Source: Lachnospiraceae bacterium (GTDB taxonomy: Bacteria; Bacillota; Clostridia; Lachnospirales; Lachnospiraceae). From it: 41,930 bases of DNA. A program made the translations under genes and the position numbers. Below are positions 185 through 31,593 of this stretch, in pieces. Position 1 is the stretch's first letter, and the number at the start of each line of letters is the position of its first letter. The DNA lies in assembly GCA_024691565.1 (NCBI GenBank), contig JAILNN010000095.1:1-41930 (forward strand). Direction: 5' to 3'. The notes below the pieces were generated by a model. That model saw only the letters and a list, made by a program, of their open reading frames with translations, was not told where the DNA came from and ran no database searches.

Positions 185-3100
185 ATGGGAAAGCAAGATC
201 AGCTTACGGAAGATGAAATTATGAAGTTAGATAGCTTTAATGATACTGTTGAAAGTTATGATGACACACAGACGGTGGTTTCACTCTTTATGAAGGCGGT
301 TAAGGATTATCCAAGAAATACTGCTGTGGTTTTTAAGGAGAATGCCTATACCTATGCTGAACTTAATCGTAGGAGTGATGCAATTACAGCTTACTGTCTT
401 GAAAAAGGACTTGGAAGGGGCGATGTAGTTTCAATTTTGATTCCACGTGGAGAATATGAAGCTATTGCATCTCTGGGTGTTTTGAAGGCGGGATGCGCAT
501 ATCAGCCACTTGACGATTCATATCCTGAGGAAAGACTTAACTTTATGGTTAATGATGCAGGTGCTAAGCTTTTAATTACGACTGAGGAGCTTTCAGGATG
601 TATCACTGATTTTCAGGGTGACAGACTCATGCTTTCAGAAATAAAGGTTGTTGATAAAGCTCTTGAATTACCAGAGGTTAAACCTGAGGATTTATTTATT
701 TTGCTTTATACATCTGGAAGTACGGGTGTTCCAAAGGGAGTTCGCCTGACTCATGGAAATCTTGTTTGTTTTGCGGATTGGTATCATAAGTATTATGGTC
801 TTACAGAAGATGACTGTGTTGGTCAGTATGCGAGTTACGGATTTGATGCATGTATGATGGATATGTATCCTGCACTTACAAGGGGTGCGACACTTTGTAT
901 TATTCCTGAGGAAATTCGTCTAAACTTGAATGAGTTAAATTCATATATGGAGAAGAATCATATTACTCATCAATTTATGACTACACAGGTTGGTCGTCAG
1001 TATGCAATGGAGGCTTCAGAGCCATATTTAAGACATTTATCTGTTGGTGGAGAAAAGCTTGCTACAGTTACACCTCCTACAGATTTTAAATTACATAATG
1101 TATATGGTCCTACAGAGTGTACGATTCTTACAACTGTTTATCAGGTTACTGAAAGGGAAGAAAATATCCCAATCGGTAAGCCTCTTGATAATGTTAAGCT
1201 CTATGTTGTTGATAATGAGGGGAATAGACTTCCTTGTGGGGAAACAGGAGAGCTTTGGATTGCTGGACCTCATGTAGCAGATGGTTATTTAAATCGTCCT
1301 GAAAAGACTGCTGAGGTTTTTATTGATAATCCATTTGATGATGATCCAAAATATAAGAATGTATATCGTTCAGGTGATTTAGTTTATTACAAGGAAGATG
1401 GAACAATTATTTTTGCAGGACGTGCTGATGGACAGGTTAAGATTAGAGGTTTTAGAATTGAGCTTAGTGAAGTAGAAGCAGTTGTTCGTGAGTTTGATGG
1501 TGTTAAGGATGCAACTGTTGTTGCCTTTGATAGTCCATCAGGTGGAAAATATATTGTAGCTTATGTTGTTGGTGATGAGGAAATTGATGTTGAGGCTTTA
1601 AATAGCTTTATTGCAGAGAGAAAGCCTCCATATATGGTTCCTGCTTCAACAATGCAGTTGGATAAGATTCCTTTGACTCAGAATCATAAGGTTGATAAGA
1701 GGTCTCTTCCTGTTCCTGAAGTTAAGACTTTTGATGATGAAGATGATGGAAGAGGAAGGACAGAATGCGAAGAAAAGCTTCTTCCAATGGCGTCAAAAGC
1801 CCTTGGTTTTGATTTTAATTCAGTTTCTGTAGATTTGGTTTCTGCAGGACTTACAAGTATTTCTGCAATTTCTTTTGTAACTAATATTGAAAATGAATTT
1901 GGTGTAGCCCTTTCAGTTAAAGAGTTATTAAGGGGATGCACAATTCTAGATATAGAAAATATGATTTTTAAGGAGCTTATTAATAAGAGTTCTGTTAAGG
2001 CTACAGAAGAGGAGAAAAAAGAACTTAAGAATAGATATCCACTTACACAGACTCAGTTTGGTATTTATTCTGAGTGTATGCTTAATCCTGATTCGACTAT
2101 GTATAATATTCCGTATTCATATAGGATGGATAAGGAAATCGAGGTTAGTAAGCTTGTTTCGGCTGTTTCTAAGGTAATTGATGCACATGGAGCAATTAAG
2201 TGTACGATTTCTGCGGCTGACGATGGTGAGGTTTATCTCTTCCCACATCCTGATAGAAAGCCTGAGATTAAGGTGAAAAAAGGCGGTGAAGTTGATGCTC
2301 TTGCTTACTGGGATGACTTTATTAGACCATTTGATATGGCAAATGGACCTCTTTACAGAGTTTGCGTTTTTGAGACTGAAAGAAGTATTTATTTATATAT
2401 TGATTTCCATCATATTATGTTTGATGGAAGCTCCCTTAATATCTTTATGAGCGATTTGGATAAGGCTCTTAAGGGTGAGGAAATTGAGGCTGAGAAATAT
2501 ACAATTTTTGATGTTTCTGAGGCTGAACAAAAGACTATTAAGGACGGTGGAGAGAAGAGAGCTAAGGATTATTATGATGGTCTTATGCGTGGCTCTAATG
2601 GATGTACTGTTCCTGATGGTGATAGAGACATTAAGGTTGAAATTTGTGGTGAGGCCAATTACCTATGTGAGGGACTTTCTAGCGAAGAGGTCAAGAAGTT
2701 CTGCGAAGAAATTGGCGTTACAGAAAATGCCTTCTTCCTTTCTGCAATGGGATTTGTTCTTCAGAGATATACTGCTGCAGAGGATGTGAGCTTTACAACA
2801 ATTTACAATGGAAGATCTGACCTTAAGACAGAAGGACTATTTGGTATGCTTGTTAAGACGCTTCCTGTTCGTTGTTTCCCAGAGGATGAGAAACTTACTG
2901 TTGACTATGTTAAAGAAACTGCTCGTCAAATCCTCTCTAATATGGCTAATGATATCTATTCATTTGCAAAGATTAGCCGTTCTTCTGGACTTCGTTCAGA
3001 CTTTATGATGGTTTATCAGGGAGATTTGTTTGCCTGGGATAGTCTTGGTGGACATAAGATAGAAACAAAGGTTGGTGCCTCAAATATGGCTATGTCTGAT

Positions 3101-6100
3101 GTTTCTATGGATGTTATTAAGGAAGATGGAAAGTATAGACTTTGCACACAGTATCGCGCAAATAAATATAGTGAGGATTATATTCTTAAACTTAGTGATT
3201 CTCTAGCGACTGCAGCTAAGAGTTTACTTAAGTCTAGTAAACTAAAGGATGTTATTATTTGCTCTGAAAAGGAAGCCGCCGTTATAGATAGTTTTAATAA
3301 TACTGATTATACAGTTGAATTGATGGCAGAGCACAAGTTATTTGAGAATTGGGTTGAGAAGATACCGGAGACTCTTGCTTACATTGGAGCTGGAGAAAGA
3401 ATTAGCTATAGCGAGATGAATAGAAGGGCTAATTGTATTGCTAATGCTCTTATTGATAGGGGAATTGAAAAGGAATCAATTGTTGGACTTGTTTTACCAA
3501 GGACTGCAGCAGTTCCTGTTAGTGAATATGGTGTGTGGAAGGCGGGAGGCGCCTTTTTACCAATGGTTCCTGAGTATCCTGATGATAGAATTGAGTATTG
3601 CTTAGAGGATGCGAACAGCCGTTTTTGTATTACTACGGAGGCAGTTAAAAAGGAGAGGGCTGAGCTTTTCTCTCCGGATAAGCCATATGTAACACTTACT
3701 GTGGAAGAGCTTTTAGAGAGCGGTAAGGAAGATAATCCAAATATAGATGTTGATCCTGAACAGCTTGCATATTGTATTTATACATCTGGTTCAACTGGAA
3801 AACCTAAGGGTGTTATGATTGAACATAGAAATCTATGCAACTTTGTTAATGCAAATGAGAAAAACATGGAAACCTATGAATTTGTGAAGGGCGGAAGTGT
3901 TGCACTTGCCTTAGCTTCGATTTCATTTGATGTTTCAATGATGGAGATGCATATTTCTTTTGCAAATGGTATGACCGTTGTTATGGCTGAAGAGGATGAT
4001 ATTCATGATCCGCTTGCCCTTGCAAGGCTTATTAAGGCTGAAAATGTTCAAGTTATTTGTGCTACACCTTCATTCCTTACAAATATTATTGAATTACCGG
4101 AAGTTAGGGATGCTCTTAAATCTGTTAAGATGTATGATCTTGGAGCGGAAGCCTTTCCTGGTGCGCTTTATGGTAAGATTAGGGAGGTAAGTTCTGAGGC
4201 TTCAATTGTTAATGGATATGGACCTACTGAAACTACAATTAGTTGTATAGCTAAAAAGCTTACTAGTGGTGAAAATATTACAATCGGAAGCCCTGCATCT
4301 AACGTTAAAGCCTATGTTATGGATAGTGCGAGACATCTTTTACCAATGTATGCTAATGGAGAACTTGTTATTGTTGGTAAGGGAGTAGGTAGAGGATATG
4401 TTAACCTACCTGAGAAGACTAAGGATGTTTTCTTTGAATATAATGGTGAGAGAGCATATAGAAGTGGCGATTTGGTTAGATATAATGCTGATGGAGAGAT
4501 TGAGTTCTTTGGAAGATTAGATAACCAGGTTAAGCTTCGTGGTCTTAGAGTTGAGTTAGATGAAATTGAGAATGTTATTAATTCATATTCTGGCGTTAAG
4601 ATGAGTAAGGTCGTTGTTAGGAATAATGGTAAGGAAGATTATCTTGCTGGATTCTTTACAGCTGAAACTGAGGTTTCTCTTGAGGATTTGACTTCTTATC
4701 TTAAATCTAAGCTTACTTACTATATGGTTCCTTCTGTGCTTAGACAGCTTGCAGAAATGCCACTGACAGTTAATGGTAAGATTGATAAGAATCAGCTTCC
4801 TGATATTGAATATACTGGTGAAGATAGACCTTATGTTGAACCTGTTACTGAGCTTGAAAAAGAGCTTTGTGAAGCATATCAGCAGATTTTAAGTGTTGAT
4901 AGAGTAGGAGCAACAGATAGCTTTTTTGAAATCGGTGGAACATCTCTTAGTGCAACGAGAGTTGTTATGTTTGCGATGACAAAGGGATATGAAATTGTTT
5001 ATAAGGATGTATTTACATATCCAAGTCCTCGTGAATTAGCTGCATTTATTACTGGAGAGGTAGTTGAAAATACTTCTGATGATAGTGCTGCTAATCGTAG
5101 TGCATCTGACTATGACTATGGAAAGATTGAAAGTAAACTTAAGATAAATAGCATGTCAAATATTGAGAATGTTACTCGTCGTCCTTTGGGTAATATTATT
5201 CTAACTGGAGCAACTGGTTTCCTTGGAAGTCATATTTTGCATGAATTCCTTGAAAACTATGATGGTAAGGTGTGGTGCCTAATTCGTAAGGGTGGATATG
5301 ATTCCTGTGATATGAGACTAATCACAATTCTTCGTTATTACTTTGAAAAGGGTTATGAAGATTTGTTTGGTACCAGAATATTCTGTGTTGAGGCTGATAT
5401 TACAGATACAAATTCACTTGAACAGTTAGATTCTATTGATGCTGATACAATTATTAACTGTGCTGCCTGTGTTAAGCATTTTGTTCAGGATGATACCTTG
5501 GATAGAATTAATGTTGGTGGTGTTAAGAACTTGATTGAGGTTTGTTTAAGAAGTGGAAAGAGAATAATTCAGATTTCTACGACTTCAATTGCTGAGAATG
5601 GTTCGAAGGAACTCTCTGGAGCGGTTCTTCATGAGAATGAGCTCTATATTGGTCAGGATATGGGTAATGACTATGTTAGAACAAAGTTCCTTGCAGAGAG
5701 AGCTGTGCTTGAAAGTCGCGCTACTAAGGGGTTAGACGGAGTTGTTATTAGAGTTGGCAACCTTATGAGTAGAGCTTCTGACGGTGAGTTCCAGATTAAC
5801 TTTGTAACTAATGGTTACATGCGTTCTCTTAAGGCATATAGAAAATTAAAGATGTTCCCGGCATCGGCACTCGATGAACCACAGGAATTTTCTCCAATTG
5901 ATTCGACTGCAGCAGCGATATTAAAGCTTGCTGAGGATGGTAGTGAGGCCTGTGTTTATCATGCATATAATAATCATTTGATTTCTATGGCTGATGTTAT
6001 TCATGCTATGAGAGATTACGGTTTTGAAATTGAGGTTGTTCCTGATGAAACCTTTGCAAATGCTGTTTCACGTGCGGCTAAAGATCCTGAAATGAGTGAT

Positions 6101-6283
6101 ATTGTGCTTGGTATTGTGGCATATAATAGTAATGATGAGGGTGCTACGGCATATATTGGTCAGGATAATCGTTTTACAACGAATGTGCTTTATCGTTTGA
6201 ATTGGAAGTGGCCGATTACAGATGATGATTACTTGCTAGATTCAATTCGTGCCCTTGATACTTTGGATTTTTTTGAGGAGTAA
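185..6283 (+). CDS. Dimodular nonribosomal peptide synthetase, A-T-C-A-T-R (terminal thioester reductase)
   Basis: 2032 aa; A-domain motifs LYTSGSTGVPKG and IYTSGSTGKPKG, YGPTE in both; carrier motifs GLTSIS (Ser558) and GGTSLS (Ser1587); condensation motif HHIMFDG; C-terminal NAD-binding GATGFLG plus YxxxK (YVRTK); RBS aaggagg upstream. Confidence 0.95.
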   Translation: MGKQDQLTEDEIMKLDSFNDTVESYDDTQTVVSLFMKAVKDYPRNTAVVFKENAYTYAELNRRSDAITAYCLEKGLGRGDVVSILIPRGEYEAIASLGVLKAGCAYQPLDDSYPEERLNFMVNDAGAKLLITTEELSGCITDFQGDRLMLSEIKVVDKALELPEVKPEDLFILLYTSGSTGVPKGVRLTHGNLVCFADWYHKYYGLTEDDCVGQYASYGFDACMMDMYPALTRGATLCIIPEEIRLNLNELNSYMEKNHITHQFMTTQVGRQYAMEASEPYLRHLSVGGEKLATVTPPTDFKLHNVYGPTECTILTTVYQVTEREENIPIGKPLDNVKLYVVDNEGNRLPCGETGELWIAGPHVADGYLNRPEKTAEVFIDNPFDDDPKYKNVYRSGDLVYYKEDGTIIFAGRADGQVKIRGFRIELSEVEAVVREFDGVKDATVVAFDSPSGGKYIVAYVVGDEEIDVEALNSFIAERKPPYMVPASTMQLDKIPLTQNHKVDKRSLPVPEVKTFDDEDDGRGRTECEEKLLPMASKALGFDFNSVSVDLVSAGLTSISAISFVTNIENEFGVALSVKELLRGCTILDIENMIFKELINKSSVKATEEEKKELKNRYPLTQTQFGIYSECMLNPDSTMYNIPYSYRMDKEIEVSKLVSAVSKVIDAHGAIKCTISAADDGEVYLFPHPDRKPEIKVKKGGEVDALAYWDDFIRPFDMANGPLYRVCVFETERSIYLYIDFHHIMFDGSSLNIFMSDLDKALKGEEIEAEKYTIFDVSEAEQKTIKDGGEKRAKDYYDGLMRGSNGCTVPDGDRDIKVEICGEANYLCEGLSSEEVKKFCEEIGVTENAFFLSAMGFVLQRYTAAEDVSFTTIYNGRSDLKTEGLFGMLVKTLPVRCFPEDEKLTVDYVKETARQILSNMANDIYSFAKISRSSGLRSDFMMVYQGDLFAWDSLGGHKIETKVGASNMAMSDVSMDVIKEDGKYRLCTQYRANKYSEDYILKLSDSLATAAKSLLKSSKLKDVIICSEKEAAVIDSFNNTDYTVELMAEHKLFENWVEKIPETLAYIGAGERISYSEMNRRANCIANALIDRGIEKESIVGLVLPRTAAVPVSEYGVWKAGGAFLPMVPEYPDDRIEYCLEDANSRFCITTEAVKKERAELFSPDKPYVTLTVEELLESGKEDNPNIDVDPEQLAYCIYTSGSTGKPKGVMIEHRNLCNFVNANEKNMETYEFVKGGSVALALASISFDVSMMEMHISFANGMTVVMAEEDDIHDPLALARLIKAENVQVICATPSFLTNIIELPEVRDALKSVKMYDLGAEAFPGALYGKIREVSSEASIVNGYGPTETTISCIAKKLTSGENITIGSPASNVKAYVMDSARHLLPMYANGELVIVGKGVGRGYVNLPEKTKDVFFEYNGERAYRSGDLVRYNADGEIEFFGRLDNQVKLRGLRVELDEIENVINSYSGVKMSKVVVRNNGKEDYLAGFFTAETEVSLEDLTSYLKSKLTYYMVPSVLRQLAEMPLTVNGKIDKNQLPDIEYTGEDRPYVEPVTELEKELCEAYQQILSVDRVGATDSFFEIGGTSLSATRVVMFAMTKGYEIVYKDVFTYPSPRELAAFITGEVVENTSDDSAANRSASDYDYGKIESKLKINSMSNIENVTRRPLGNIILTGATGFLGSHILHEFLENYDGKVWCLIRKGGYDSCDMRLITILRYYFEKGYEDLFGTRIFCVEADITDTNSLEQLDSIDADTIINCAACVKHFVQDDTLDRINVGGVKNLIEVCLRSGKRIIQISTTSIAENGSKELSGAVLHENELYIGQDMGNDYVRTKFLAERAVLESRATKGLDGVVIRVGNLMSRASDGEFQINFVTNGYMRSLKAYRKLKMFPASALDEPQEFSPIDSTAAAILKLAEDGSEACVYHAYNNHLISMADVIHAMRDYGFEIEVVPDETFANAVSRAAKDPEMSDIVLGIVAYNSNDEGATAYIGQDNRFTTNVLYRLNWKWPITDDDYLLDSIRALDTLDFFEE

Positions 6284-6289
6284 TTTATT

Positions 6290-8050
6290 ATGCTTAAACG
6301 TAATGAAAAACTAATAAAATCTAAGCTTTGGCAATATTTGATTCCGTCGATTATGACTAATATGGCTTTGCAGATTGGTAATGTTGTGGATACTATCCTG
6401 GTTGGTAATATTCTTGGTGCAAAGGCCATGTCAGCAGTGCAAATTGGTGGCACAATAATGCTACTTATTCAGATTCCAGGTTATATGCTTGGAATTGGCG
6501 GTAGTATTATGGCTGGAAATCGACTGGGTAAGAGAGATGTTAAGGGTGCTAGTAATGTGTTTTCAGCATCCCTTCTTACATCACTTATTGCTGGTATTAT
6601 TTTGATGGCATTAGCTTTCTTTTCGGCGCCGATTTCAGCGTTTTTAACAGGCGGACAGGGGGCACTTACAAAGGATGTTACAGATGTTGTTCGTGTTTCT
6701 TTTTTAGGAACGCCGATTTTAAGTGCCGGTTTAGTTATGATTAACTTTATGGCGGTTGATAATAACCCGTCACTTTCGACAGTATATGTTGTGACGTCTA
6801 ATGTATTAAACTTACTTGCGGATTATTTCTTACTTAAATATACAAAGATTGGTCCAGCAGGTTCTTCACTTTCTACCTTCATTGGTTACGGCGTTGCCCT
6901 GATTGTGGTAATTCTTTATGTACGTTCTTCTAAGAGGATGCTTTCACTTAGGATTAGTTTTGAAGGTCTTAAGGATGCCTTTATTACAGGTGTTCCGGCC
7001 ATGCTTTCAATTGTTTGTGAGATGATTAGAAATTCTGTAATGAATATTATGATTCTTAGACTTATTGGAGATGATGCAGTTGCAATTTACACAATTTGCT
7101 TGAATCTCGTTATGGTTTGTGAACTCTTCCTGGGTGGAATTATTGAAGCCATGAATATGATTGGTGGGGTGGTATATGGAGAAAAAGATTACTTTGGACT
7201 TAGAAGTTTATCTAAGTATATTTTGAGGTATAGCTATACTGTTTTATTTGTTCTTACAATCATTTTAGTAGCATTTACAAGACAGTCAGCGGCAATGTTT
7301 GGAGTTACTGATGCTTCGCTTTTAGATGCGTCAGTTCCTGCGCTTAGGTTATTCTTAATTGCTCTTCCAGGCTATGTATTTAACCGCTTCTTTATTGCAT
7401 ATTATCAGACAACAGAGAAGACTGTTTACTCTAATTTGATTACTATTTTACAATTCTGTGGAGTACTCCTTCCTGCGGTTTTTGCCTTTGTAAAAATTGC
7501 CATTGCTTTAGGATTAAATACCTTAAATGCGGCAATGCTTGGTATGGCAGCTGGAGAGGTCTTTACTGCAATAATTATGGTTATTGTGGTTAATATAACG
7601 AATAAGCGTGCAGGTCTCCTTTGTATTCCTAAGGATGTTAATGAGGATGTTTTAGATATGTCTGTTTCGCCAGATGCTAAAGAAGCTAGTAGAGTTCCAA
7701 GGGAAATCATCGCATTTTGTAAGGATAAGATTGATTCTACACCAGCTACTCAGATTGCGATTGCAGCAGAAGAGATGGCTGTGAATGCTATTACCTATGG
7801 TGGAAATAGCCTATCTAGTATTGATGTAATGCTTTGTATTACAGATGATTCAGTGCTTCTCAGACTTCGTGATAACGGAATTCCATTTGACCCTACAAAC
7901 TATGAATATGATGATAAGAACTATGAATATAGTGGTATTGAGCTGGTTAGAAGGATTACAAATAGGATTACCTATCTTAGAACCTTGGATTTTAATAATA
8001 CGACCTTGGAGATAGATAGAGAAAACCTAAAGGCAGAAGCACAAGCATAA
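6290..8050 (+). CDS. MATE-family efflux transporter with C-terminal RsbW-like HATPase_c_2 domain
   Basis: About 440 aa of multi-TM MATE sequence, then a soluble domain with GHKL-type boxes (EEMAVNAITYGG, DNGIPFDP, YSGIELVRRITNRITYLRT). Starts 6 nt after the NRPS stop, with gaggag RBS inside the NRPS end. Confidence 0.88.
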   Translation: MLKRNEKLIKSKLWQYLIPSIMTNMALQIGNVVDTILVGNILGAKAMSAVQIGGTIMLLIQIPGYMLGIGGSIMAGNRLGKRDVKGASNVFSASLLTSLIAGIILMALAFFSAPISAFLTGGQGALTKDVTDVVRVSFLGTPILSAGLVMINFMAVDNNPSLSTVYVVTSNVLNLLADYFLLKYTKIGPAGSSLSTFIGYGVALIVVILYVRSSKRMLSLRISFEGLKDAFITGVPAMLSIVCEMIRNSVMNIMILRLIGDDAVAIYTICLNLVMVCELFLGGIIEAMNMIGGVVYGEKDYFGLRSLSKYILRYSYTVLFVLTIILVAFTRQSAAMFGVTDASLLDASVPALRLFLIALPGYVFNRFFIAYYQTTEKTVYSNLITILQFCGVLLPAVFAFVKIAIALGLNTLNAAMLGMAAGEVFTAIIMVIVVNITNKRAGLLCIPKDVNEDVLDMSVSPDAKEASRVPREIIAFCKDKIDSTPATQIAIAAEEMAVNAITYGGNSLSSIDVMLCITDDSVLLRLRDNGIPFDPTNYEYDDKNYEYSGIELVRRITNRITYLRTLDFNNTTLEIDRENLKAEAQA

Positions 8051-24965: not shown

Positions 24966-27900
24966 ATGATATTTAACAGTATGAATATGACTAAGAATAT
25001 ATATAAATATTTTAAAAATAAGGGTTTTATGGTAGTATTAGCCCTTTTTTTAGTGTGCAGTCTTGTTTGTGGAGATTTGGATATTGTTAAGATTAATGCA
25101 GAGAGCGCTGATGAGTCTGATTTATCTCAGATTTCTAATCCTATTGTTGTTGAAGATTCTACGACTCGCTCTGGACAAAGAACAACTTATTCGATTATTA
25201 CCTTTGGCTCATATCCTCAGAGTGAGGTTTTGTCGGATGATGAGGAATACAGTAAATTAGAAAATGCGACTGATTGGGATTCTGCAAATGTTACAACTAT
25301 TGATGGTGTTAAATATAAGAGAATTACAAAGAGTGATGCCAGAAGAGTAGATTGGCAAGTTATGGATCGTTTTAGTGGAGATGGTGTATGTTCTTATAAT
25401 TGGGAGGATAGTACCAGTTGGCACTACTTTAGGTTTGAGCCTATTAAATGGAGGGTTCTAGAAAAGAGTGATGATGAATTATTATGTTTATCTGAACTTG
25501 GATTGGATACATATGATTATTGGGATAGTACTGATAATAATAATAATTCTGGTTCTAGGGTATATGAAAAAACAGAGTGGCTTACATCCTTGATAAGATA
25601 TTTTTTAAACTCTTATGATGTTGAAAATGGTTTTCTTGATACTGCATTTAGTGATGATGAGCAAAATGCTATTGTTGGAAATTTAGTTGATGAGGGAGTA
25701 TATGATAAGATAGTGCTTCCTGATTTTGATATGATTTATAGTGGTTCTAAGTCTTTAAGTTACGGTTTTTGTTCTTCTGCAGATGCTATGGATGATGCTC
25801 GATTGTGTAATGCATCAGATTATGGAAGAGCAATGGGGATTGTAGTACGTAATTCAAAGGATTATGTTAATTGTTGTCGGTGGCAAACCTCTGAGAGAAT
25901 AAATGGTAATCAGTATATGGGATATGTAGATTTCGATGGTAAAGTTATTGATAAGTATAATTCTGATTATAGCACTCTTGGTTGTGGAATAAGGCCTATT
26001 ATTCAAATTGATACAACAAAGGATAATATTGAAGAGTTAATTGATTATTCTTATCAATGTGATACAACTACTCAGATAGAAAAACAAATATTGGAGTACT
26101 ATTCAAAAGTTGAAAGTGAAAAAGATTTTTTTTATTTGGGAAATAAAAGGGTTTGCGGTTCTTATTATGTAGAGGATACTTGTTTTCGTTATGTGAATTT
26201 TGGTTCGTTTCCAAAGACTGAAATTAAAGAGGATAATGCGATTTATGGTACTCTTAGTTCAGAAGATGCCTCATGGAGTAATAATGAAATAGAAATTGAT
26301 GGTGAAAAATATCTTAGATTGACTAAAGATGAGGTTAATGTGTTTGATAGTGGTGGTAGTCATTGGTACTCATATTACGATTGGAGTGCATCTGATGCGG
26401 AGTATAGATATATTAAATATGAGCCGATTAAGTGGTGTGTGGTCGCTGTCGAAGATGGAAAGGCATTGCTCTTATCGGACGAATGTATATACAATTGGGG
26501 GATTACTGGAGATACAAGTACATCCGCAAAGTGGTCGGTTTCGTGTCTTAGATCTTACTTAAATGGATATACTAAAGATTATAATACTAAAGAAATTGAT
26601 TTTAGTAATAATTCATTTGTTGGTAAAGCTTTTAGTGAGGATGAAAAAGACATAATTGTAGGTGGAACTATAGATAATGATAAATATGGATTACCATCAA
26701 AAGATATGGTCCTAATTCCATGTAAAGATGAGATAGAGGATTATTCTGGTGCAACTAGTGGTGAGTTATATAATACTGATAATACTGATTATAGTTATAT
26801 ACTCGGATCTGTCAAATGTTTTGATAAGGTATATTGTCCAATCAGATCAACTTCGAATAGTATTGAGGTGGATGATCCTTTTTATGGTAACTTTACTCCG
26901 AGTATTGATGCTATGTGTGTCAGAGTTTGTGTTTGTGTTAATGTTTCTGATACGGAAAAACTATCGGATGTAATGACATATGAGGGATTATATAATCCGA
27001 CATTTGGAATGTTAGGTGCTAATGATGAATATCCTGTTGAAGATATTTCTGGAGAAGGATCTACATCGACACCAACAGCAACGGCAGTATCGACAATAAA
27101 ACCAACAACGACACCAACAGCAAAGCCTACAGTAACACCTACGGTGAGCCCAACAGCTTCTGTTTTGCCGACGGCTGAGGTAGTAAGTAGTGCGTCCCCA
27201 GTGCCTACTGAAGAAGTAGATATAAGTGAGAGTAGTTCTCCAGTTCCTAATGATGATGAGTCGGAGGTTACAGGTTCTCCTGATAATACTGATGGACCAA
27301 GTGTTTCTAGTAGTCCGAGTAAAGATGGTGATTTAAGTACGGAAAGTCCTGAAGATGATTTAAGTACTGAAAGTCCGACGAGTTCATTGAGCCCAGCTAG
27401 CTCTGCAAGTCCTAGTCCAACTAGCTCTGTAAGTCCTAGTCCAACTAGCTCTGTAAGTCCTAGTAATACTAGCTCTGCAAGTTCTACGCCGGCTAGTTCA
27501 TCAATTTCTAGTACAGCTTCAAGTGTGAGCTCTGGAGGTGCTTCTACTGCGAGTGATACTGATGAAACAATTATTTATAAAGGAATTAAATATAGGATTA
27601 AAGGTAATAAGGTTGTTGTTTGTGGAATTTCTAAGAAGATGGTAAGTGTTAGAATTCCTGAAAAGATTAAGTATAATAAAAAGTCCTATAAGGTTACAGA
27701 AGTTTCTGCAAATGCATTTAAGGGAAATAGATTTATTTGCAATGTGCGAGTTGGCGATAATGTAACTAAAATTAATGAATGTGCTTTTATGAAATGCAAG
27801 AAGTTACAAAATATAATTATTGGTAAAAGTATAGTAAATATTGGTACTAAGGCTTTTGCAAATGATAAGAAATTAGTTTTTGTTAAGATTACAAGTAAAA

Positions 27901-28016
27901 GATTAAAGAAGGTTAAAAAAGGAGCTTTTGATGGAATTAGTTCAAAGGTTACTTTTAGAGTTCCGACTTCTAAGTTAAGAGCCTATCAGGTGATTATTAA
28001 GAATAGTAAGAGATAA
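24966..28016 (+). CDS. Secreted surface protein: two DUF6273-like modules, Ser/Thr/Pro linker, C-terminal LRR_5 module
   Basis: N-terminal hydrophobic signal; repeated pattern ITFGSYPQSE...FEPIKWRVLE...LLCLSELGLDTYDYW...FSDDEQNAIV and VNFGSFPKTE...YEPIKWCVVA...ALLLSDECIYNWG...FSEDEKDIIV; C-term VTEVSANAFKGNRFICNVRVGDNVTKINECAFMKCKKL. Confidence 0.8.
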   Translation: MIFNSMNMTKNIYKYFKNKGFMVVLALFLVCSLVCGDLDIVKINAESADESDLSQISNPIVVEDSTTRSGQRTTYSIITFGSYPQSEVLSDDEEYSKLENATDWDSANVTTIDGVKYKRITKSDARRVDWQVMDRFSGDGVCSYNWEDSTSWHYFRFEPIKWRVLEKSDDELLCLSELGLDTYDYWDSTDNNNNSGSRVYEKTEWLTSLIRYFLNSYDVENGFLDTAFSDDEQNAIVGNLVDEGVYDKIVLPDFDMIYSGSKSLSYGFCSSADAMDDARLCNASDYGRAMGIVVRNSKDYVNCCRWQTSERINGNQYMGYVDFDGKVIDKYNSDYSTLGCGIRPIIQIDTTKDNIEELIDYSYQCDTTTQIEKQILEYYSKVESEKDFFYLGNKRVCGSYYVEDTCFRYVNFGSFPKTEIKEDNAIYGTLSSEDASWSNNEIEIDGEKYLRLTKDEVNVFDSGGSHWYSYYDWSASDAEYRYIKYEPIKWCVVAVEDGKALLLSDECIYNWGITGDTSTSAKWSVSCLRSYLNGYTKDYNTKEIDFSNNSFVGKAFSEDEKDIIVGGTIDNDKYGLPSKDMVLIPCKDEIEDYSGATSGELYNTDNTDYSYILGSVKCFDKVYCPIRSTSNSIEVDDPFYGNFTPSIDAMCVRVCVCVNVSDTEKLSDVMTYEGLYNPTFGMLGANDEYPVEDISGEGSTSTPTATAVSTIKPTTTPTAKPTVTPTVSPTASVLPTAEVVSSASPVPTEEVDISESSSPVPNDDESEVTGSPDNTDGPSVSSSPSKDGDLSTESPEDDLSTESPTSSLSPASSASPSPTSSVSPSPTSSVSPSNTSSASSTPASSSISSTASSVSSGGASTASDTDETIIYKGIKYRIKGNKVVVCGISKKMVSVRIPEKIKYNKKSYKVTEVSANAFKGNRFICNVRVGDNVTKINECAFMKCKKLQNIIIGKSIVNIGTKAFANDKKLVFVKITSKRLKKVKKGAFDGISSKVTFRVPTSKLRAYQVIIKNSKR
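27393..27488 (+). repeat. Four 24-bp in-frame tandem repeats (PTSSVSPS-like) in the surface-protein linker
   Basis: Units of ccaactagctctgtaagtcctagt at 27393, 27417, 27441, 27465; the middle two are identical. Confidence 0.85.
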
Positions 28017-28073: not shown

Positions 28074-29798
28074 GTGATTATGAATAAACAGAGTTTAACT
28101 AATAATACAATTCTAAAAGAAAAATATATAATTGAAAATTGCATTGGTATGGGTGGTTTTGGAATTACCTATAAGGTTCGTGATATAGGCTCTGAAAAGC
28201 TATATGCTATTAAGGAGTATTATCCTACGGATTTTGCTTATAGGGATGATGATAATTGCCTTACGGTTGTTTCTGATAAGGAGGTTTATTTTCAGAAAGA
28301 GAAGGAGAGATGCATTCAAGAAGCTAAGGTACTTAGTGAGCTTAGTTATTTAGACGGTATTGTTGAATTTGTTGAGTGTTTTGAAGAAAATAATACAGTC
28401 TATCTTGTTATGCAATTTATTGATGGAATTACCCTGAATGAGTATCTTAAATATAATGGGACTCTTTCTTATAGAGAGATTGTTTTGTTGCTTAAACCTA
28501 TTTTGACATCACTTGCGAGGATGCATAAAAGGGGATATGTCCATAGAGATATTAGTCCTGATAATATTATGATTGGAACTGATAATAAGTTTTATTTAAT
28601 TGATTTTGGTGCTGCATGGGTTGATTCTAATCGTTTTGAAAGTGATGAAGATTATACTAAATCGCAGACTGTTATCTTGAAGAATGGATATGCTCCACCT
28701 GAGCAATATATAAAAAATGGTAATACTGGCACGTGGAGTGATGTATATGCGATTTGTGCTTTGATTTATAAGAGTGTTTGTGGTGTTCGTCCTGTTGAAT
28801 CTATTGCTAGACTTCAAGGAGCTGAGTTGAGTGATTTGGATTCTTTGGAAAAGAAAGACGACGGTGAAGAAAAAATCATTAAATGGCAAAAAGACGTTAT
28901 ACTTAAAGGTCTTAGTCTTAATGCTAATGAAAGATATAGAGATGCTGGGGAACTTTTAGATGCTCTTTTAGTTGAACCGGTAGTAAGGAAAAAGGAGAGT
29001 ACTGGTAGTATCCCTTCAGGTGATGGATTTTCATATAACATAAGGAATATTACTGGGGAAGAAGTAGATAATTTAAAGGATGATAAGAATTCGTCTTCTG
29101 GAAAGAAGATAATTATTATTATTGGAGTTATTGTTTTAGTTATTATTATTGGTATTTTGGCCCTGGTTTTTAGTGATAAATTTAAGGGTGGAACTAGTAG
29201 TAATACACAAAATAATCTTGAAAGTGAACAACCTTTATTGAGCGGAAGTGATAGTTCTAGTTTTGAGAATAGTTCTGGAGATGATAGCTCTTCTAGTGAT
29301 GAGAATACTTCAAGTGAAGAAAATACATCTAGTGAGAGTTTACCTAATGAGAGTGATTCTCCAGAGGTGGTTGATGAAACTGTAACTATGGTTTCTCTTA
29401 AGAATAAAAGTCTTTCTAGTGCTAAGAAAAAAATCAAGGCGCTTGATAACAAGATTAAGGTTAAGATTAAAAGAAGCTACAATAATAAATATAAAAAGGG
29501 AAGAGTTATTAAACAAAGTGTTGTTCCAAATACGACCTTCAATAAGGGTAGTATTAAGAGTATGATTTTATGGGTTAGTAAGGGTAAGAAACCTGAAAAA
29601 TCAAATACATCAAGTGGAAGTACAACCACATATGATTCGAGTTCTTCGTCTGGTAGTTCAAATAGTAATTCAACCACTAGTAATTCTTCTTCAAGTAGTC
29701 AAAGTTCTGGATCTTCTGGTAGTGGAAGTTCTGAGAATAGTGATTCAAATGACAGTGGTTCTAATAAGAATTCAAATTATTCTGATTTTACATTTTGA
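28074..29798 (+). CDS. Transmembrane Ser/Thr protein kinase with one PASTA domain and a Ser/Asn-rich tail
   Basis: Gly loop GMGGFG, AIKEYYP, HRDISPDNIMI, LIDFGAAW, APPEQY; TM KKIIIIIGVIVLVIIIGILALVF; PASTA-like TMVSLKNKSLSSAKKKIK...GRVIKQSVVPNTTFNKGS. Start may be 28080. Confidence 0.9.
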   Translation: MIMNKQSLTNNTILKEKYIIENCIGMGGFGITYKVRDIGSEKLYAIKEYYPTDFAYRDDDNCLTVVSDKEVYFQKEKERCIQEAKVLSELSYLDGIVEFVECFEENNTVYLVMQFIDGITLNEYLKYNGTLSYREIVLLLKPILTSLARMHKRGYVHRDISPDNIMIGTDNKFYLIDFGAAWVDSNRFESDEDYTKSQTVILKNGYAPPEQYIKNGNTGTWSDVYAICALIYKSVCGVRPVESIARLQGAELSDLDSLEKKDDGEEKIIKWQKDVILKGLSLNANERYRDAGELLDALLVEPVVRKKESTGSIPSGDGFSYNIRNITGEEVDNLKDDKNSSSGKKIIIIIGVIVLVIIIGILALVFSDKFKGGTSSNTQNNLESEQPLLSGSDSSSFENSSGDDSSSSDENTSSEENTSSESLPNESDSPEVVDETVTMVSLKNKSLSSAKKKIKALDNKIKVKIKRSYNNKYKKGRVIKQSVVPNTTFNKGSIKSMILWVSKGKKPEKSNTSSGSTTTYDSSSSSGSSNSNSTTSNSSSSSQSSGSSGSGSSENSDSNDSGSNKNSNYSDFTF

Positions 29799-29826: not shown

Positions 29827-29860
29827 AAAAGGACAACCATGGTTATTGGCTGTCCTTTTT
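29827..29860. terminator. Bidirectional terminator between convergent kinase and FHA-like genes
   Basis: AAAAGGACAACC...GGCTGTCCTTTTT stem with one mismatch; A tract 5' and T tract 3'. Confidence 0.8.
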
Positions 29861-29896: not shown

Positions 29897-30382
29897 TTAC
29901 CAAGTAAAATCTTCGTTACAGAGTGCCACGAATATGTATTTATTTGAGTCGACAGTGATAATTGCTCTGTCATTTAATGGTGATGATTTTGTTATTGAAT
30001 CATCATCTATTGTGACATTTCTTTTATTTGGATTTAAGATAAATCCTTTTGTTATTGAGTAGGTAATTGTGATTTGTCGATTCTCTGATGATGATTTAAG
30101 GGAATCTTTATCGTAGTTAATCTTACCTATGGTATTTCTTCCTTCATATAGGTTGATGCATTGCCCAGCATTTTCTCCTGAGATGGATGTTATCCAACCT
30201 ACAGTTTTTCTTTTATTTAAGGTGTCGTAGAAGTTTCCTTCAGATACAACAGTTTCACTTTCAGAATAGCCTTTAAGGATTTCTTTTTCAGAAATTCCTG
30301 CACTTATCATTGCGCAATGTGGACATTGTTCAAATTTATCAAAGTCATAGTAATGGCCATTTGGACATTTAATTAGATTCAT
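29897..30382 (-). CDS. Zinc-ribbon plus degenerate FHA-like domain protein
   Basis: CPNGHYYDFDKFEQCPHC ribbon; GWITSISGENAGQCINLYEGRNTIGK resembles an FHA start. RBS gaggagg on the minus strand. Confidence 0.7.
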   Translation of the reverse strand: MNLIKCPNGHYYDFDKFEQCPHCAMISAGISEKEILKGYSESETVVSEGNFYDTLNKRKTVGWITSISGENAGQCINLYEGRNTIGKINYDKDSLKSSSENRQITITYSITKGFILNPNKRNVTIDDDSITKSSPLNDRAIITVDSNKYIFVALCNEDFTW

Positions 30383-30417: not shown

Positions 30418-31593
30418 TTAACCTAATTTGAAAACAACACTTTTATCACCAAATGATATGGTGGTGTCTGGCTCTAAAATATAACGCTCGTTTTTAACAA
30501 GACGGTTTTCACCATTAATGAAGGTACCGTTTGTTGAATCATCAATTATTTCATAATGATCGAGAGAAGAGTTATATAAAATTTTACAATGTATCTTACT
30601 TACCTTTGGAAGGTTTACAATAAAGTCTGCTACGTTTATATCGCGACCGATTATTATTTCTATGTCTGACTTAAAGTTTATATTTACACCTGTATATGGA
30701 CCGCTGATGCCTGTTATTGAAGCGCGTGACCGAGGTGCTTTATAAGTCATCTTTACTATTTCTGAACTTGAAAGCGGTTCAAATTTAGTTTCTTGATTTG
30801 TAGTAGAATGTTTTACTTCATTCTTTGCATCTGTAGCTTTGAGATTTGAGCTATCTGATATGTTTATCTTTTCATTAGCCTGACTTTCAAAAAGTGATTT
30901 CAGACTGTCTTTATATTGTCTACTAACAGGAACTTGGAAGGCACCCATTTCAACAGTTGTGGTTCCGATAGATGTGATTTTATCATAAGAAATTAAAAAG
31001 CTTTGGTGACATCTAATGAAACCATATGGCTTTAGAGCAGCTTCGAGAGCGGAAAGCTTCTCGTAGTATTCAATATCTTTATTTTGGGTATGAACAATAA
31101 CTTTTCGGACGTTACTTTCAATATAAATAATGTCCTGAATTGGAATTCTTACATCTTCATTCCTTTTATGGATATCTAAATATATAGTTTCAGAAAGTAG
31201 CTTCTTTAAATACATTTTAATTACAGATTCTAAAGCAGTTCTTGTGACTGGTTTTAAGAGATTTGCAAATGCATTGTATGTATATCCATATGAAAAGTTG
31301 TCGGCAGAAGATGAGATGAAAATCATATCTGTATCTAGTTGATTGTTATTTATCAAACGAGCAACTTCGATTCCGTTTTCATCATCTGAAAAGATGTCAA
31401 TTAACATTAAATCAACATCGAATTCATCTTCCTCGATTTCATCGAGAACTTCTGTGTAATCATCATAAATAATTATTTCTTTTTGTATGTAGCGAAATGT
31501 TTTGGAATCAAAAAGATTTAGAATGTCTTTTTTGTAATCTTCATTATTCTTACAAAGACCGATTTTAAAAGTAGTATCGTTCATAGCTTTCAA
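30418..31593 (-). CDS. Response regulator with REC, LytTR DNA-binding and C-terminal FHA domains
   Basis: REC: DLMLIDIF, FISSSAD, LLKPV; LytTR: IIYIESNVRKVIVHT...FIRCHQSFLISYDKI...VPVSRQY; FHA: EIIIGRDINVADFIV...VSKIHCKI...STNGTFING. Confidence 0.88.
   Translation of the reverse strand: MKAMNDTTFKIGLCKNNEDYKKDILNLFDSKTFRYIQKEIIIYDDYTEVLDEIEEDEFDVDLMLIDIFSDDENGIEVARLINNNQLDTDMIFISSSADNFSYGYTYNAFANLLKPVTRTALESVIKMYLKKLLSETIYLDIHKRNEDVRIPIQDIIYIESNVRKVIVHTQNKDIEYYEKLSALEAALKPYGFIRCHQSFLISYDKITSIGTTTVEMGAFQVPVSRQYKDSLKSLFESQANEKINISDSSNLKATDAKNEVKHSTTNQETKFEPLSSSEIVKMTYKAPRSRASITGISGPYTGVNINFKSDIEIIIGRDINVADFIVNLPKVSKIHCKILYNSSLDHYEIIDDSTNGTFINGENRLVKNERYILEPDTTISFGDKSVVFKLG

Follow-up and report, generated by a model that had tools for sequence, protein, structure and literature searches.

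The window analyzed here, a stretch of 41,930 nucleotides from a Lachnospiraceae bacterium, encodes a protein that joins a receiver domain (REC), a LytTR DNA-binding domain and an FHA domain. This architecture is genuine and conserved, and it is embedded in a module with a membrane Ser/Thr kinase (STK). Reading of phosphothreonine probably controls the LytTR domain, in which case the regulator would be the transcription-factor end of the STK module.

Architecture of the Fusion Protein

The fusion gene and its domains are as follows:

30418–31593, minus strand: REC-LytTR-FHA fusion, 391 aa from TTG (open reading frame, Pfam, AlphaFold, 68%-identical relative)
31195–31569, minus strand: REC domain, aa 9–133 (Pfam, residue table, AlphaFold elements)
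30859–31182, minus strand: LytTR DNA-binding domain, aa 138–245 (Pfam; Foldseek to AgrA and ComE LytTR structures)
30421–30726, minus strand: FHA domain, aa 290–391 (Pfam and alignment of 28 fusions)

An in-frame ATG at 31584 (codon 4) is a likelier start than the TTG, because a same-genus relative (L032/L093), which is full length and 68% identical to the window fusion end to end, starts at that codon. The preliminary description of this DNA had placed all three domains in one protein, and Pfam, AlphaFold and Foldseek bear this out. The LytTR domain is clear (Pfam, 1.7e-22, aa 148–235; Foldseek, ComE and AgrA); the FHA match is similarly so (6.2e-14, aa 313–382), and the Response_reg match (2.9e-07, aa 42–125) lies barely over the cut-off. 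An AlphaFold model built on a 32-row alignment of relatives (mean pLDDT 84) contains three confident domains, REC at 9–133 with its beta/alpha elements, LytTR at 136–245 and FHA at 277–391, and a disordered linker at 244–288. The top Foldseek match is full-length ComE (4cbv), over REC-LytTR, followed by FHA structures for the C-terminus and by LytTR structures.

The FHA domain is canonical, as had been described: alignment places all of the phosphothreonine-binding residues (R317, S332, H335, N355, and G356). The REC site reads K15, N16, D66, S94, and K114, so that the phospho-acceptor Asp and the Lys are kept, as was also described; the Mg-binding acidic pair, previously called weakened, is in fact replaced outright, DD having become K15/N16 (31546–31551). 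With that pair lost, the site of two acidic residues, Asp, Thr/Ser and Lys is incomplete, and the window REC is probably not phosphorylated.

Neighboring Genes and the Host Genome

Four features lie beside the fusion gene:

24966–28016, plus strand: secreted/surface protein with repeats that we take to be DUF6273-like and a C-terminal LRR_5 (BspA-like) region (Pfam LRR_5, 1.1e-12)
28074–29798, plus strand: transmembrane PASTA-type Ser/Thr kinase, 574 aa (Pfam, motif alignment)
29827–29860, no strand: inverted repeat with flanking A and T runs (found by eye, unscored)
29897–30382, minus strand: zinc-ribbon and degenerate-FHA protein, 161 aa (alignment, AlphaFold, Foldseek)

The kinase matches Pkinase (9.3e-34) and a single PASTA domain (1.1e-09); catalytic Lys, HRD, and DFG are intact in the alignment, and a hydrophobic transmembrane segment lies near aa 346. 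Its activation-loop Thr is T199 (28668–28670), with Leu at +3; among kinases of the module the catalytic Asp and DFG are kept in 18 of 18, and the activation-loop residue is Thr in 17 and Ser in one. Judged by its score, which is far under the Stk1/PknB equivalog cut-off (151.8 against 450), the kinase is related to the housekeeping PrkC/Stk1 enzymes but distinct from them. The gene for the LRR protein ends 57 nt upstream of it. A DUF6273-like domain is common to this LRR protein and to L070:14329–17698, and it recurs near STK/LytTR/FHA loci, where such proteins could be outputs or sensors.

The kinase gene had been described as convergent with the fusion gene at a distance of 620 nt; the distance is correct from stop to stop, but the intervening gene at 29897–30382 was overlooked. 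It lies 35 nt downstream of the fusion gene in the same orientation, forming one operon with it, and the inverted repeat between it and the convergent kinase gene is a probable bidirectional terminator that would end both transcripts. The encoded protein, for which Pfam gave zero matches, carries a zinc ribbon (CPNGH...CPHC) and an FHA fold (AlphaFold, Foldseek); the Asn-Gly positions of the FHA domain are lost in the aligned zinc-ribbon-FHA proteins beside fusions. Between ribbon and FHA domain, T44 (30251–30253) corresponds to a linker Thr kept in 19 of 19 members of the module, where it lies within Q..[IV][DEP]T. Apart from T44 the linker is poorly conserved, and with pLDDT below 50 at 40–49 it is probably disordered. 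At that place the Thr is mostly missing from zinc-ribbon-FHA paralogues of PP2C/STK clusters. Some paralogues beside PP2C genes (L197–L223) repeatedly show a different motif in the linker, KTVG/KTIG, which may mark another class of phospho-Thr site.

No cognate histidine kinase adjoins the fusion gene among the neighboring open reading frames, in agreement with the preliminary description. No LytTR protein besides the fusion was found in the genome (2.64 Mb, 94% complete, 260 contigs), which holds nine STKs and four Pfam FHA matches; several unlinked PF06580 histidine kinases have no response regulator gene in the examined flank (L189, L190, L193). Given these nine STKs and several histidine kinases, the neighboring STK is a candidate partner of the fusion, and some histidine-kinase input may exist. 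HATPase_c_5 matches in the genome were rejected as LytTR-type cognate kinases, their sequences and adjacent response regulators marking them as OmpR/NarL-type. Elsewhere in the genome an FHA fragment at a contig start is followed by PP2C and CpaF-like ATPase genes (L233/L037; G000:C114:1–1740).

A scan for pairs of the strict LytTR direct-repeat consensus found none in the whole window, nor in intergenic sequence of the window or of L093. A defense-system reading of the module was rejected; the padloc match was a generic kinase alone (PD-T4-6/mad6-like), with no other module gene. Farther off in the window, a large non-ribosomal peptide synthetase gene (NRPS; 185–6283, plus strand) encodes two adenylation, one condensation and two carrier domains and ends in an NAD-binding domain of the reductase type, which suggests an aldehyde-type product. 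Directly after it, 6290–8050 (plus strand) encodes an unusual fusion, a MatE protein of the multidrug-transporter type that carries an HATPase_c_2 (anti-sigma-kinase-like) domain at its C-terminus.

Conservation of the Module

LytTR-FHA fusions were gathered by scanning 84,980 species genomes with an alignment as the query, together with genome searches; a scan of genome contigs with a one-protein query returned zero relatives, which the alignment-based scan did find. Together these yielded 28 distinct fusions, 17 with REC and 11 without. Nearly all come from gut and rumen Clostridia labeled Lachnospiraceae or Clostridia, one of them (G743, L156) from another family of the class; among 399 genomes sampled from the whole phylum (E ≤ 1e-22) the only fusion was the window's own.

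Within 6 kb, an STK gene accompanies 19 of 28 fusions vs. 3 of 46 ordinary LytTR loci from the same scan (Fisher p = 3e-8), a zinc-ribbon-FHA gene 20 of 28 vs. 0 of 46 (p = 5e-12, with a profile made from module members, which favors finding such genes in modules), and an LRR5 gene (BspA-like LRR surface protein) 15 of 28 vs. 2 of 46 (p = 2e-6), all p values being for loci that are phylogenetically non-independent and, at several fusions, cut by contig ends. The neighborhood profiles were made from sequences of this analysis rather than taken from Pfam; that for histidine kinases rested on one sequence, and low histidine kinase counts were therefore not used as evidence. The unit is accordingly larger than the kinase and regulator first described: it also takes in the zinc-ribbon-FHA protein and, usually, a surface protein with LRRs.

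This module of four parts, an LRR protein, an STK, a LytTR-FHA protein that may or may not carry REC, and a zinc-ribbon-FHA protein, is found again and again in varied gene orders, and its genes in many loci overlap or sit a few tens of nucleotides apart. In another Lachnospiraceae genus (G147, L045) the four genes follow one another in that order on one strand; the LytTR-FHA protein lacks a receiver domain, and identity to the window is 36% for the kinase domain, 38% for LytTR-FHA, and 29% for zinc-ribbon-FHA. Six of the 28 fusions (L092, L094, L095, L097, L099, L109) have neither an STK nor a zinc-ribbon-FHA gene nearby; L095 is cut by a contig end and may be incomplete. Four of the REC-less fusions have no STK in view (L092, L094, L095 at 3840–4487, L099 at 3906–4586); L095 and L099 lie on long branches and the others on short contigs, and these fusions may answer to an unlinked kinase.

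At nine further distinct loci a REC-LytTR gene is directly followed by a separate FHA gene, within larger STK/FHA clusters, some with PP2C. A dense cluster at L071 (1–14000; G040:C16) contains STK, PP2C, several zinc-ribbon-FHA and FHA proteins and a REC-LytTR regulator, along with an FHA-containing ABC transporter and a VWA-like protein with FHA. In Eubacterium sp. MSJ-21 (L098, 6729–8681), tandem REC-LytTR and REC-LytTR-FHA genes lie near an STK gene, and the first REC site is degraded (DENTR). A plasmid origin was rejected; among the plasmid matches listed, all of them ordinary LytTR regulators, query cover is 45–66% and none reaches 80%.

Decay of REC and Retention of FHA

With an intact REC site defined as [DE][DE]-D-[TS]-K, 7 of the 28 fusions have an intact site, 10 an altered one and 11 no REC at all, whereas the FHA binding residues R-S-H-N-G are complete in 24. 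The sister-species protein (L093) reads KSESK, having lost the Asp as well as the acidic pair, here K-S. Readable REC sites are intact in unfused REC-LytTR proteins beside an FHA gene, and the site is intact in about 100 of 118 non-fused proteins, some duplicates counted (p = 2e-4 against the fusions). In the REC-less L088–L090 the immediate upstream neighbor is the STK gene (−23 to +65 nt), so there is no room for a lost separate REC gene.

A tree of concatenated LytTR and FHA sequences unites 24 fusions with good support (100/99) and separates them from the unfused loci; the LytTR-only tree is too short for resolving deep forks. On the concatenated tree the absence of REC needs four changes, at least three of them forced by starred branches. 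Repeated loss of REC is thus probable, and unproven because the AU test (p = 0.06) does not formally reject one clade of all REC-less fusions.

Taken at the level of sequence, REC is the dispensable input and FHA the retained one. Because REC is lost or altered while FHA is kept, in a conserved STK module, the pattern supports replacement of a phospho-aspartate input by an STK/phosphothreonine input; phospho-Asp input may persist in the seven fusions with a full REC site. The earlier suggestion that a LytTR regulator reads an STK signal is likewise supported by the STK linkage, the FHA residues and the loss of REC, but its term hybrid may overstate the case for the window protein, since the REC of that protein is probably not phosphorylated.

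Proposed Mechanism and Alternatives

We infer the signal, the kinase-substrate relations, the FHA ligand, and the effect on DNA binding as follows. The membrane STK would sense an envelope signal through its PASTA repeat, perhaps linked to the neighboring LRR surface protein, and would phosphorylate Thr in proteins of the module, the best candidates being T44 of the zinc-ribbon-FHA protein and its own T199. The intact FHA domain of the LytTR protein would bind the phosphothreonine, docking or the resulting oligomerization would alter DNA binding by LytTR, and the N-terminal REC would be an inherited dimerization domain or a relic. T44 is the one invariant Thr of a disordered linker, in a protein whose gene neighbors encode a kinase and an FHA protein, and in this it appears to resemble the expected kinase-made FHA ligand. 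Against it, classical FHA domains prefer Asp or Ile/Leu at +3, where module members mostly have Pro/Ser/Thr/Val. The activation-loop Thr of the kinases is an alternative candidate ligand. The adaptor step through T44 is a possibility to which we would not give even chances.

A contender, itself short of an even chance, is that FHA merely docks the regulator on the autophosphorylated STK, which then phosphorylates the regulator on Thr and so changes its dimerization and DNA binding. EmbR of M. tuberculosis and ComE are the precedents: the FHA domain of EmbR is required for interaction with and phosphorylation by PknH, although phosphorylation of EmbR went undetected in vivo when growth was normal (PMC9239209, PMC4601284); ComE, a REC-LytTR regulator, is phosphorylated by StkP on Thr128, which raises its DNA affinity about 5-fold (PMC6010298), so a LytTR regulator can take STK input. 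ComE is also the top structural match of the fusion, and the kinases have the conserved activation-loop Thr (T199), with Leu at +3. Yet REC, the site of ComE Thr128, is missing in 11 of 28 fusions, and this account leaves the conserved linker Thr, T44 in the window, unexplained. This alternative overlaps control by phosphothreonine reading and does not exclude it.

A true hybrid, with REC phosphorylated by an unlinked histidine kinase or a small phosphodonor and the FHA/STK branch modulating, seems unlikely: the window acidic pair is K-N and that of L093 K-S with the Asp gone, 11 fusions have no REC, and the window gene has no adjoining cognate kinase, even though D66 and K114 are retained, 7 of the 17 RECs have a complete site, and the genome has the histidine kinases without a flanking response regulator gene noted above. 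It is rather improbable that FHA serves for structure or membrane tethering and reads no phosphothreonine, the linkage reflecting a general STK/FHA-rich neighborhood. FHA domains can act without phosphothreonine and related clusters hold many FHA proteins (L071, L100, L101), but R-S-H-N-G persists in 24 of 28 LytTR FHA domains whereas neighboring zinc-ribbon-FHA proteins lost Asn-Gly, and the STK is a recurrent partner. Chance fusion or a metagenome assembly artifact, for which one could cite the 260-contig assembly, is already refuted by recurrence, in the same-genus relative and across 28 loci in many assemblies, including records not labeled as metagenome-assembled (Eubacterium sp. MSJ-21, bacterium D16-51).

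Control by phosphothreonine reading remains our preferred account, and we extend it only tentatively to a distinct transduction class, in which an STK/FHA cluster captured a histidine-kinase response regulator that became fused to FHA, REC was then repeatedly lost, and a dedicated zinc-ribbon-FHA phospho-adaptor relays, through its linker Thr, from kinase to LytTR. The loci can be read as a natural series, from REC-LytTR beside a separate FHA gene, through fusions whose REC is intact and fusions whose REC is altered, to fusions that lack REC, and this series shows a route by which a response regulator could change its input from phospho-aspartate to phosphothreonine. To our knowledge few targets are known for non-housekeeping membrane STKs of gut and rumen Clostridia, and the module names a testable kinase-adaptor-regulator chain in these poorly studied bacteria.

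Comparison with Known Systems

The literature searches made turned up no open-access paper that combines LytTR with FHA. The closest functional likeness is to EmbR/PknH: both comprise a DNA-binding transcription factor with a C-terminal FHA domain, which in the window has its phosphothreonine-binding residues, encoded beside a transmembrane STK. EmbR has an OmpR-type winged helix and BTAD (SARP family) and neither LytTR nor REC, and the passages cited describe no zinc-ribbon-FHA partner for it (PMC9239209, PMC4601284). By analogy the window fusion would work like EmbR, but it is not a member of the EmbR family, because LytTR (Pfam) replaces the SARP architecture.

ComE/AgrA-type response regulators (4cbv, 3bs1) share REC and LytTR with the fusion; they lack FHA, are paired with a histidine kinase and have an intact acidic pair. 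GarA and OdhI, among the Foldseek matches of the zinc-ribbon-FHA partner, likewise have a conserved Thr before FHA, whereas the window partner differs in its N-terminal zinc ribbon, in the degenerate pocket of its FHA domain and in the LytTR regulator alongside. In systems of the HdrRM/BrsRM type the membrane partner is an inhibitor. These LytTR Regulatory Systems (PMC6193735) resemble the fusions in having REC-less LytTR regulators with a membrane partner, but that partner is no kinase and FHA is absent. Pseudo-response regulators such as RitR, as discussed in PMC4601284, have also lost REC phosphorylation residues and taken other inputs; the window family differs from them in its fused FHA, a second signal-reading domain, and in the deletion of REC in some lineages.
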